Assembly (NCBI GenBank): GCA_013043965.1
Contig: JABEVF010000062.1
Location: forward strand, 1 to 39,497
Direction of reading: 5' to 3'
DNA length: 39,497 nt
From: Gallionella sp.
GTDB taxonomy: Bacteria > Pseudomonadota > Gammaproteobacteria > Burkholderiales > Gallionellaceae
The notes below the pieces were generated by a model that saw nothing but the letters and a program-made list of their open reading frames with translations, was not told where the DNA came from and searched no databases. This document shows, piece by piece, positions 2,188 to 6,560 of this stretch (position 1 is its first letter; every line of letters starts with the position of its first letter). Made by a program: the position numbers and the translations under genes.

Positions 2188-2200
2188 TTTGGAGTTTTAT

Positions 2201-3034
2201 ATGCAAATAATTGATTCTATTGAGTCTTTACGCGACTTGTTGGTGTCTCAGTCCAGTGTCGCATTGGTTCCGACTATGGGTAATCTGCATGAGGGGCATC
2301 TGGCATTGATGAGTCAAGCCCGCCAGCACGGTAAGCTGGTGGTGGCGAGCATCTTCGTCAATCCTTTGCAGTTCGGACCCAGTGAGGACTTTGACCGTTA
2401 CCCGCGTACCCTGGCGGAGGACTGCAACAAGTTGCAAGGGGTGGCCGATGTGGTGTTTGCGCCGTCCATTAATGATATGTACCCTCAGCGACAAACTGTA
2501 TTTGTCGAGTTGCCCGAGATTGCCAATGAGTTGTGCGGCGCATCTCGCCCGGGACACTTTCGCGGTATGGCGACGGTGGTGCTGAAATTACTCAGCATCG
2601 TCCGGCCGCAGGCTGCCTTCTTCGGTAAAAAAGATTATCAGCAGCTGCATATCATTCGGCAGATGGTTACGCAATTTAACTTGCCGGTGCGCATCGTGGG
2701 CGGCGAGACGGTGCGCGCCGCAGACGGCCTGGCCCTGAGTTCGCGCAACCAGTATTTGAGCGAGGAGGAGCGCCAGGAGGCTCGCCGCTTGAGTTGCATG
2801 CTGCGAGAGATGCGGCTGGAGATGCTCGCTGGCGATCGTTCTGTGGAACGATTGCAGCAAGCAGCTACCGAAGCGCTCGCCAGCAGGGGGTGGTTGGTCG
2901 ATTATGTTTCAGTGCGTGATCAATTGACATTGCAGGCGGCCCAACCATCAGATCGTGAACTGGTGATCCTGGCCGCGGCAACATTGGGCAAGACACGCTT
3001 GCTGGACAACATCGAAGTATATCTGCCCGGATGA
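2201..3034 (+). CDS. panC: Pantoate--beta-alanine ligase
   Basis: VPTMGNLHEGHLALM, VVASIFVNPLQFGPSEDFDRYPRT, FFGKKDYQQL. ATG at 2201 is preceded by GGAG; the track start at 2189 (TTG) is less likely. Confidence 0.95.
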   Translation: MQIIDSIESLRDLLVSQSSVALVPTMGNLHEGHLALMSQARQHGKLVVASIFVNPLQFGPSEDFDRYPRTLAEDCNKLQGVADVVFAPSINDMYPQRQTVFVELPEIANELCGASRPGHFRGMATVVLKLLSIVRPQAAFFGKKDYQQLHIIRQMVTQFNLPVRIVGGETVRAADGLALSSRNQYLSEEERQEARRLSCMLREMRLEMLAGDRSVERLQQAATEALASRGWLVDYVSVRDQLTLQAAQPSDRELVILAAATLGKTRLLDNIEVYLPG

Positions 3035-3075
3035 GTGCTATATAATCCGCGCCCCATTTGAAATGGAGGTCCCTT

Positions 3076-3456
3076 ATGCAAAGAACCATGCTTAAAGCCA
3101 AGTTGCACCGGGTGCATGTCACGCATTCCGAGTTGCACTATGAGGGCTCGTGCGCGATCGACGATGATTTGCTGGATGCCGCCGATATTCATGAGTACCA
3201 GCAAATCGATATTTATAATGTGACGAATGGCGAGCGCTTCACCACTTATGCGATACGCGCGCAGCGCGGCTCCGGTGTGATTTCCGTGAACGGGGCGGCC
3301 GCCCATAAGGCGAACCCGGGGGATATTTTGATTATCGCCACCTACGCCGTGTATACCGAACTGGAGTTGCGAGAATTCCATCCCAAGCTGGTGTATGTGA
3401 ACGAGCATAACCGCATCGTCGCGCAACGTGACGAGATATCTGTGCAAGCAGCTTAG
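3076..3456 (+). CDS. panD: Aspartate 1-decarboxylase
   Basis: [36 protein letters not shown] with the GSC self-processing site; RBS GGAGG upstream of ATG 3076. Confidence 0.95.
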
Positions 3457-3539: not shown

Positions 3540-3992
3540 TTACCCACCGGAGACGATAGGGATGGATTTGAAGGCGGCGATTGTTTTTTTGGGCGCCTTG
3601 GATAAGTCGGCTAGCGTGTATTGGTCGAGTACGCCCATGAAGGTCGCTTGCGCATTGAATAATACGGATTTCAGGCTGCAGGAGCGGGTGATGACGCATT
3701 GATCCGTCGCGGGGTTGAAGCATTCCAGCAAATCCAGATCGGGTTCGGTAGCGCGCACCACATTCCCGATCAATATCTCTTTGGCGGGATGGGCTAGCCT
3801 GAGTCCGCCATTCCTGCCCCGGGTCGTCAAGATGTATCCCTTAAGCCCCAGGTTGTGCACCACTTTGACGAGATGGTTGCGCGAAATCTTATAGAAATCG
3901 GCGAGGTCGCTGATCGTCACCACTTCGTCTTCCTTGCCGGCTAGATACAGTAGGACTCGTAATGAGTAATCGGTGTATAGGGTCAAGCGCAT
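3540..3992 (-). CDS. nsrR: Rrf2-family transcriptional regulator, NsrR-like
   Basis: MRLTLYTDYSLRVLLYLAGKEDEVVTISDLADFYKISRNHLVKVVHNLGLKGYI...RGRNGGLRLA...ECFNPATDQCVITRSCSL: Rrf2 winged helix plus three Cys as in NsrR. Confidence 0.9.
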   Translation of the reverse strand: MRLTLYTDYSLRVLLYLAGKEDEVVTISDLADFYKISRNHLVKVVHNLGLKGYILTTRGRNGGLRLAHPAKEILIGNVVRATEPDLDLLECFNPATDQCVITRSCSLKSVLFNAQATFMGVLDQYTLADLSKAPKKTIAAFKSIPIVSGG

Positions 3993-4138
3993 TTCTTACC
4001 TTTTCCGGGTTGTACGGCTCTAACAAGCTTTGGTGAGGCGGCTATTCTACTGGGCGGCCGCATCCGGGTGGTCATCTTTCACGTATCGGATACCGCCGAT
4101 CCTCGCAACATTCTCTTACAATTTCTCGAACACAATTC

Positions 4139-4168
4139 TTGACGCGTTTGCCGAAGAACAATTAAGAT
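4139..4168 (+). promoter_or_regulatory. Putative sigma70 promoter of the globin/reductase operon
   Basis: TTGACG (4139-4144) - 18 nt - TAAGAT (4163-4168), ~120 nt upstream of the globin ATG. Confidence 0.5.
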
Positions 4169-4186
4169 GCACTAAGAATGTATCTT
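4164..4186 (+). promoter_or_regulatory. NsrR operator
   Basis: AAGATGCACTAAGAATGTATCTT: inverted half-sites AAGATGCA / TGTATCTT spaced as in the published consensus AAGATGCATTTnAAATGCATCTT; overlaps the predicted -10. Confidence 0.85.
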
Positions 4187-4290
4187 ATTGTTGTGTTGGT
4201 CTAGCGCAGCTTGAATATACATCCTCGGAGTGCGTTTATACAATCACCAGGACTTTCTGGCAGTAGGTCAAATAACTTTAGGAGAAGAAT

Positions 4291-4653
4291 ATGAGTCTGT
4301 TTAACGAAATTGGTGGTGAAGGTGCAGTGGATGCTGCAGTGGATATTTTTTATCGCAAGGTTTTGAAAGATGATCGCATCAAGAGGTTCTTCGATGGTGT
4401 CGATATGAACAAGCAGGCGGCCAAGCAAAAGGCCTTTTTGACCATGGCATTCGGTGGCCCGCACAACTACTCCGGTGCGGATATGAGAAAAGGCCATGCC
4501 CATCTTGTCGCTCAGGGGCTCAACGACTCGCATTTTGATGCGGTGATGGAACACCTTGGCGGCACGCTTGCCGAGCTTAAAGTGCCGGGGCATTTGATCG
4601 CGCAGGCCGCTGCCATTGCGGAAAGCACCAGGCATGACATTTTAGGCAAATAG
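4291..4653 (+). CDS. Truncated haemoglobin, group 1 (TrHbN/GlbN-like)
   Basis: MSLFNEIGGEGAVDAAVDIFYRKVLKDDRIKRFFDGVDMNKQAAKQKAFLTMAFGGPHNYSGADMRKGHAHLV: B10 Tyr, GGP motif, proximal His. RBS AGGAGAAG. Confidence 0.93.
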   Translation: MSLFNEIGGEGAVDAAVDIFYRKVLKDDRIKRFFDGVDMNKQAAKQKAFLTMAFGGPHNYSGADMRKGHAHLVAQGLNDSHFDAVMEHLGGTLAELKVPGHLIAQAAAIAESTRHDILGK

Positions 4654-4665
4654 GTTCAGACACCG

Positions 4666-5619
4666 ATGCCCAAGATTATTTATGGCGGGCAGTCATACGA
4701 GTGCGACGAGGGCTCGGTTCTCGACTGTTTAACTGCCCACGGTGTTGCCGTTCCTTCCTCCTGTCGCTCCGGCGTTTGTCAGACCTGTCTGATGCGCGTG
4801 ACCGAGGGTGAGGTGCCCGAAAAGGCACGGGCAGGGTTGAAACCGACGCTTGCCGCCCAGAATTACTTCCTGGCGTGTTCCTGTTATCCCGAAAAAGACA
4901 TCGAGGTCGCCCTGCCCGAAGCCGGGCTTGGTAGGTTGGAGGCCAAGGTTGCCCGTGTCGAATATCTCAATGCCGATATTCTGGGTATCAGGCTCAAGCC
5001 TTCCCGGACCTTTGAATACAAGGCGGGGCAATTCATCAATCTTTTCAAAGATGAGGCTACGGCGCGCAGCTATTCACTGGCAAGCGTCCCGGCTCTGGAG
5101 GAGGAGCTTTTCCTCAATGTGCGCAAGGTTCCGGGCGGGCTGGTGAGCGGTTGGGCTTTCGCGGATATCAAAGCGGGGGACACGCTGACGATCTCGGAAG
5201 CTTCCGGCGATTGTTTTTATGTTCCGGGGCAACCCGAGCAGAATATCCTCCTGATCGCCACGGGTTCGGGTCTCGCGCCGTTGTATGGCATCATCCGCGA
5301 TGCGTTGTTGAACGAGCATCACGGCAAGCTCAGTCTTTATCATGGTAGCTATAACGCGGATGGGTTTTATCTGGTCGATGAGTTGAGGCGGCTTGCGCAG
5401 GCTCACCCCAACTTCGAATATGTGCCGTGCATATCCGATGGTGAGGCCTCGGTAGGATACGCGTCCGGGATGGTTTTGGATGTTGCCTTGGCTGACAATC
5501 CCGATCTTTCCGGTTGGCGCGTCTTTTTATGCGGCAATCCGAACATGGTCAATGCGGCCAAACAGCAGACGTTCTTTGCGGGCGCGTCCATGCGTGATAT
5601 CTTTGCCGATCCGTTCTAG
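4666..5619 (+). CDS. [2Fe-2S] ferredoxin / FAD / NAD(P)H oxidoreductase
   Basis: N-terminal plant-type ferredoxin (SSCRSGVCQTCLMRV...LACSC), FAD motif RSYSLASVP, nucleotide motif LIATGSGLAPLYGIIRDAL, C-terminal VFLCGNPNMVNAAKQ. Confidence 0.93.
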   Translation: MPKIIYGGQSYECDEGSVLDCLTAHGVAVPSSCRSGVCQTCLMRVTEGEVPEKARAGLKPTLAAQNYFLACSCYPEKDIEVALPEAGLGRLEAKVARVEYLNADILGIRLKPSRTFEYKAGQFINLFKDEATARSYSLASVPALEEELFLNVRKVPGGLVSGWAFADIKAGDTLTISEASGDCFYVPGQPEQNILLIATGSGLAPLYGIIRDALLNEHHGKLSLYHGSYNADGFYLVDELRRLAQAHPNFEYVPCISDGEASVGYASGMVLDVALADNPDLSGWRVFLCGNPNMVNAAKQQTFFAGASMRDIFADPF

Positions 5620-5685: not shown

Positions 5686-5804
5686 TCAAGACAAAATCCC
5701 GAGACTTTTGATGCTGTATGTTCAGGTCGATTCGGTTTGTTCCATTGACCATTCGGCTGTTCGCGGGTAGGATTGCGCGCTTTCGTGTTTGGCGGATTGA
5801 TAAC

Positions 5805-6560
5805 GTGCGACGCAAATTGGTTGTCGGAAATTGGAAGATGTACGGTCGTTTGGCGCGTAATCAGGAGTTGCTGCAAGGTGTGCTCGCCGGCGTGCGCGAA
5901 TTGCGCGGTGCGGACTATGCGGTTTGCGTGCCTTACCCCTATCTGGCTCAGGCTCAGTCCTTATTGCAAGGCAGTAACGTGGCATGGGGGGCGCAGAACT
6001 TGAGCCCGAACGAAGAGGGGGCGTTCACCGGTGCGGTCGCTCCCGGGATGTTGACGGATTTCGGTTGCAAATTTGTGATCATCGGGCACTCCGAGCGCCG
6101 TGGCTTGTTCCATGAGAGCAACGAAGTCGCATCGGCCAAATTCGATGCCGCGCAAAAAGCCGGCATGACCCCGATCTTTTGCGTGGGCGAAACTTTGGCG
6201 GAGCGTGAATCGGACATCACGGAGCAAGTGGTCGCGACGCAATTGGACGCGGTGCTGGATCGCGCCGGCGTGCAAGCCTTGTCGAACGCGGTCATCGCGT
6301 ATGAGCCGGTCTGGGCGATCGGCACAGGCAAGACGGCGAGCCCCGAGCAGGCGCAGGCGGTTCACGCTTTCATCCGCCGGCGTGTGGGGGGGCATGACCC
6401 TGAAGTGGCGGAAAAGCTGTGTATACTCTACGGCGGAAGCGTGAAAGCTGCGAATGCCGAGGCGTTGTTTGGTATGGCGGATATCGATGGTGGTCTGATA
6501 GGCGGGGCCTCATTGGTGGCGGAAGAGTTTGTGGCGATCTGTCGCGCGGCACAAAAATAA
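5805..6560 (+). CDS. tpiA: Triosephosphate isomerase
   Basis: RRKLVVGNWKMYGR, VIIGHSERR, AYEPVWAIGTG, YGGSVKAANA. GTG at 5805 gives the canonical N-terminus; the track start at 5718 adds 29 atypical residues. Confidence 0.93.
   Translation: MRRKLVVGNWKMYGRLARNQELLQGVLAGVRELRGADYAVCVPYPYLAQAQSLLQGSNVAWGAQNLSPNEEGAFTGAVAPGMLTDFGCKFVIIGHSERRGLFHESNEVASAKFDAAQKAGMTPIFCVGETLAERESDITEQVVATQLDAVLDRAGVQALSNAVIAYEPVWAIGTGKTASPEQAQAVHAFIRRRVGGHDPEVAEKLCILYGGSVKAANAEALFGMADIDGGLIGGASLVAEEFVAICRAAQK

Follow-up and report, generated by a model that had tools for sequence, protein, structure and literature searches.

NsrR was first described at the ncgABC-nirK cluster of Nitrosomonas, in which the genes follow one another in the order of that name. 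The published NsrR site consists of two AAxATGCATTT arms of 11 bp, 1 bp apart, and in Vibrio vulnificus both nsrR and the divergent hmpA are repressed from a single NsrR site between them (PMC8175989). A further NsrR system has been predicted in Legionella, where a glbN-ferredoxin reductase operon was put forward as the sole NsrR target, with NO oxidation as its proposed function (Rodionov et al., 2005; PMC1274295). The prediction was repeated by Gardner (2012), who argued that ferredoxin reductases are electron donors to such globins (PMC3820574). For the group 1 truncated haemoglobin (trHbN) of Sideroxydans and Gallionella, on the other hand, a terminal-oxidase role has been preferred (PMC3770913).

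The window analysed here is a stretch of 39,497 nucleotides (contig JABEVF010000062.1, positions 1 to 39,497) from the draft genome of a Gallionella sp., a freshwater iron oxidiser (GCA_013043965.1; 2.48 Mb, 96% complete). Because the assembly is a draft, all gene absences from this genome are provisional. Flanked by panC/panD (2189-3456) on one side and tpiA (5718-6560) on the other, a regulator gene stands divergent from a globin/reductase gene pair, with 12 bp between the latter two genes. This three-gene layout, including its coordinates, had been described correctly in the initial annotation. The features of the module are as follows:

3540-3992, minus strand: Rrf2-family nsrR-like repressor gene, 150 aa, with a C-x7-C-x5-C cluster motif.
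4139-4144, plus strand: -35 element TTGACG of the globin operon (TTGACA in most relatives), conserved in eight intergenic regions.
4163-4168, plus strand: -10 element TAAGAT, 18 bp from the -35 element and overlapping the left arm of the operator, conserved in eight intergenic regions.
4164-4186, no strand: predicted NsrR operator, an 11-1-11 inverted repeat, AAGATGCACTA-A-GAATGTATCTT, recognized by motif match and conservation.
4291-4653, plus strand: glbN, encoding a group 1 truncated (2/2) haemoglobin, a probable NO dioxygenase, 120 aa.
4666-5619, plus strand: gene for a ferredoxin-type NAD(P)H reductase, the probable electron donor to the globin, 317 aa.

The module is closest to the predicted glbN-lpg2536 system of Legionella pneumophila, in which a cyanoglobin-type group 1 truncated haemoglobin and a ferredoxin reductase likewise share one operon with an NsrR site and were proposed, as they are here, to substitute for Hmp in NO oxidation. 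It differs in that the regulator gene is divergently adjacent and that the host is a Gallionella-type betaproteobacterium. Moreover, no NsrR target other than glbN was reported in Legionella, whereas in the present genome another candidate site precedes an ncgABC-like operon. Since the Legionella arrangement was predicted in 2005, the module in the window is a further well-supported example and not a new type of system; what is new is the lineage-wide conservation of the module, the lysine at distal position E10 of the globin and the second candidate site. None of the papers searched links NsrR with Gallionella.

The divergent placement of nsrR and a (here probable) NO dioxygenase gene around a single intergenic 11-1-11 site is shared with V. 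vulnificus nsrR-hmpA and other NsrR-Hmp systems. However, Hmp is a fused flavohaemoglobin, whereas in the window globin and reductase are separate proteins, the latter with a [2Fe-2S] domain; the site in the window lies on the -10 element, that of V. vulnificus spans -2 to +18 of hmpA (PMC8175989). Unlike the Nitrosomonas-type context, nsrR stands with glbN here, and the ncgA-like gene is found on another contig with a candidate site of its own. In two related genomes the regulator gene does lie beside a two-domain multicopper oxidase gene, with an NsrR-like site between them. Chlamydomonas THB1 and the GlbN proteins of Synechocystis and Synechococcus are group 1 truncated haemoglobins like the globin in the window, but differ from it in regulation and electron donor.

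The regulator belongs to the Rrf2 winged-helix family (Pfam Rrf2, 3.8e-35), and its best match in the PDB is NsrR of Streptomyces coelicolor (5n07). NsrR is also its best NCBIfam match, at 135.8 bits, which lies below the model cut-off of 182. As the Nitrosomonas-type regulators whose genes, in two related genomes, adjoin that of an ncgA-type multicopper oxidase score only 131-133 bits, and hence fall below it too, this cut-off looks enterobacterial and too narrow for the clade, and it was dropped as a test of identity. The three cysteines noted earlier in the Fe-S loop are present in the form C-x7-C-x5-C, which is conserved among the regulators of related glbN loci with the exception of L135 (x8). 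The same spacing is common in RirA proteins, so it is uninformative for NsrR against RirA and was likewise set aside.

A tree of 70 proteins, with rows for NsrR, RirA and IscR, provides the phylogenetic check that had been proposed for the NsrR assignment. One branch (98/80) holds the window regulator together with E. coli NsrR, Streptomyces NsrR and the ncgA-adjacent Nitrosomonas-type proteins, and excludes RirA and IscR. The E. coli and Streptomyces proteins are joined to the window clade by long branches, that of Streptomyces being very long and its exact placement unsure. One other full-length Rrf2 gene was found in the draft genome, on contig C134; since it lies beside iscS and iscU, its product is IscR, and an IscR identity for the window regulator (47.9 bits against the IscR model, cut-off 207.55) was rejected.

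The 23-bp site at 4164-4186, AAGATGCACTAAGAATGTATCTT, agrees with the published 11-1-11 NsrR motif, and the presence of two half-sites at NsrR spacing, as initially annotated, is thus confirmed. Against the working consensus AAGATGYATTTNAAATRCATCTT, which has 22 specified positions and whose exact string is our rendering of the literature motif, 18 of the 22 agree, the top score in the window with both strands searched. The operator has C at position 9 and A at position 11, both in place of T, G instead of A at position 13 and T instead of C at position 18; among related loci, G is the majority base at position 13. With these four differences, the description of the operator as near-consensus is slightly generous. 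When the 300 bp preceding the globin gene were shuffled with dinucleotides preserved, 1 of 5,000 shuffles reached a score of 18. Pattern matching across the 2.48-Mb draft genome returned 4164-4186 as the sole match to a strict pattern; a loose pattern returned it together with three weaker matches, of which one is plausible; this leaves two credible operator matches in total, that at 4164-4186 included.

The promoter proposed to overlap the operator, TTGACG-N18-TAAGAT, is weak by consensus alone (three promoter-like sites found against 2.0 expected), but gains support from the conservation of both elements in relatives. The closest relatives of the globin are found in Gallionella genomes, with a top identity of 96%. 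In an alignment of eight Gallionella-type intergenic regions, which comprised the window and its closest relatives and was scored at those columns that the window occupies, 14 of the 23 operator columns and five of the six -35 columns are invariant. Taken together, operator and -35 element have 19 of 29 columns invariant, against 18 of 269 elsewhere (Fisher P 4e-13). Invariant runs of at least four columns occur at the nsrR start codon, at 4138-4143 (CTTGAC) and at 4163-4169 (TAAGATG), and nowhere else.

The association of site and regulator extends to a wider survey, covering 77 related globin loci whose upstream sequence was long enough; an operator-like site was here defined by a score of at least 16. 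Of the 32 loci with a divergent regulator, 29 have such a site, as against 12 of the 45 that lack a divergent regulator (Fisher P 1.3e-8, a value that overstates independence because the loci are related). The reductase lies downstream of the globin in all 32 loci with a divergent regulator. Among the relatives that have the module is the cultivable Methylococcus capsulatus (L092).

Two other arrangements were seen at globin/reductase loci. Globin/reductase loci with a good operator and no adjacent regulator gene (L065, L072, L077, L086, L091, L101, L107 and L110) may be served by a regulator located elsewhere in the genome. Loci from Ferrovum and similar organisms (L089, L097, L099, L103 and L117) have the globin, with the reductase 85-138 bp downstream, and neither an adjacent regulator nor an operator; their regulation has probably diverged.

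The globin matches Pfam Bac_globin (8.5e-19), and among solved structures cyanobacterial GlbN is closest (Synechocystis cyanoglobin, 1.7e-33), with Chlamydomonas THB1 at 1.4e-27. Tyr21, Gln42, Lys45, Gln46 and His69 are invariant in 15 aligned globins and, from the alignment and general knowledge, we take them to occupy helix positions B10, E7, E10, E11 and F8, respectively. With a globin family match, a histidine at F8, a tyrosine at B10 and glutamines at E7 and E11, the protein has the features of a trHbN, and its earlier assignment to the group 1 truncated type is well founded. In the alignment, Lys45 falls opposite the histidine that Synechocystis GlbN has at E10. Position E10 can supply the distal haem ligand, GlbN using a histidine and THB1 a lysine (PMC4304232, PMC11904497), and from the alignment we infer that the haem of the window globin may also be ligated by its distal lysine. 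The reductase contains Fer2, FAD_binding_6 and NAD_binding_1 domains (Pfam) and an N-terminal [2Fe-2S] motif, C-x4-C-x2-C; these [2Fe-2S], FAD and NAD domains agree with its naming as a ferredoxin-type reductase.

Two of the steps from these observations to a NO response could be read differently. The regulator might be a RirA-like or more general Fe-S or iron sensor, with the operon answering mainly to iron or O2 and not to NO. Such a response would be natural for a microaerophilic iron oxidiser, and the nearest named relatives belong to Gallionella, an iron-oxidiser genus; in addition, the score of the regulator against the RirA model (120.9 bits, below the cut-off of 193) is nearly as high as its NsrR score, and the cysteine spacing is shared with RirA proteins. 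In the tree, however, the RirA proteins form a group of their own, apart from the window protein and from all NsrR rows. The window regulator shares 38-42% identity with RirA, but 47% with E. coli NsrR and 51-54% with the Nitrosomonas-type regulators, and the operator has the NsrR 11-1-11 form. A RirA identity was rejected on the tree and the scores, and we consider it quite improbable that iron or O2 is the main signal. Alternatively, the 23-bp palindrome could have arisen by chance, with the regulator acting elsewhere, as its four departures from the 22 specified positions might suggest. A chance origin was rejected in view of the shuffles (about 1 in 5,000), the conservation of both position and sequence of the site among relatives and its association with the regulator gene, and deserves hardly any credence.

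A further reading accepts the regulation as proposed and places the role of the globin in O2 delivery or storage, or in a terminal oxidase, instead of NO removal. This has been suggested for Sideroxydans trHbN (PMC3770913) and would suit a microaerophilic type of organism. A dedicated reductase and an NsrR-type operator nevertheless fit NO turnover better, and THB1, with its distal lysine ligand, acts as a NO dioxygenase in vitro (PMC4304232). A search of the 96% complete draft genome for a flavohaemoglobin-type globin domain (PF00042) gave no match. Together these points make an O2-related role unlikely and argue for NO detoxification over a terminal-oxidase function, at least for the trHbN copy in the window. 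The draft genome also encodes a copper nitrite reductase, NirK, which could be an internal source of NO.

The module is thus best read as a NO-defence switch, very probably one in which an NsrR-type Fe-S repressor, released by NO, controls the glbN/reductase operon for NO dioxygenation. As judged from sequence, holo-NsrR with a cysteine-ligated Fe-S cluster would bind the 23-bp repeat on the glbN -10 element and block RNA polymerase. Sensing of NO would consist in destruction of the cluster, upon which the repressor would let go and the glbN-reductase operon would be transcribed, giving the NO-induced derepression foreseen in the initial annotation. The truncated haemoglobin, acting as a NO dioxygenase, would bind O2 and turn NO into nitrate, and electron transfer through the reductase (NAD(P)H, FAD, [2Fe-2S]) would return the ferric haem to the ferrous state. 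Globin and reductase together would do the job of a flavohaemoglobin. It is possible that nsrR is also repressed from the operator at 4164-4186, as initially suggested; such autoregulation would be less direct here because the operator precedes the nsrR start by 171 bp, a distance greater than in several relatives.

The plausible weaker match in the genome, AAGATGTATTTAAAATATAGCAA (contig C133:2093-2115; L182), was found with the loose pattern and precedes, by about 22 bp, a two-domain multicopper oxidase gene, which is followed by two cytochrome c genes. Among the solved two-domain laccases matched by the oxidase is 3g5w (5e-129), the Nitrosomonas europaea enzyme, and the operon resembles the ncgABC portion of the ncgABC-nirK cluster in Nitrosomonas. 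None of 5,000 shuffles reached the score of this site, and in related genomes candidate sites lie upstream of the same multicopper oxidase gene (shuffle P 0.001 to 0.015). The right arm of the C133 site is degenerate, and we treat it as a candidate second NsrR site only. NnrS (contig C126) and NirK (contig C139) were considered as further targets and dropped, with no convincing site upstream of either gene. Tentatively, and with rather less than even confidence, Gallionella-type NsrR may be pictured as governing a compact regulon in which Hmp is replaced by a lysine-ligated truncated haemoglobin and a [2Fe-2S] reductase, and which also takes in the ncgABC-like operon and, in some relatives, membrane-anchored double-domain truncated globins.

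For at least some iron-oxidising betaproteobacteria, the module offers a specific and testable answer to the question of what trHbN does, where a terminal-oxidase role was preferred before. The globin/reductase module, predicted once in Legionella, is moreover widespread and conserved, and would be an alternative to flavohaemoglobin. With its E10 lysine and its reductase partner, the enzyme pair may also be useful for the question of how truncated haemoglobins are re-reduced.

Other truncated haemoglobins were observed alongside these loci. A second group 1 protein, 82% identical to the window globin, is encoded on contig C95:53336-53692 (L055:9193-9660) and has an N-terminal hydrophobic segment resembling a membrane anchor; no convincing NsrR site was found for this gene. 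In six loci from related genomes (L076, L081, L088, L093, L098 and L105) two truncated-haemoglobin domains are fused in one protein, with a hydrophobic N-terminal segment ahead of the globin domains in L076 and L081. A literature search on two-domain truncated haemoglobins found no relevant paper. NsrR-like sites lie 25-89 bp upstream of several of the fused genes, with up to 18 of 22 matches (L098). Finally, on plasmid p3 of Azospirillum brasilense (L179), the gene for an NsrR-like Rrf2 regulator lies divergently from those for an alternative oxidase and a group III truncated haemoglobin, in what may be a further globin-based arrangement for NO defence.
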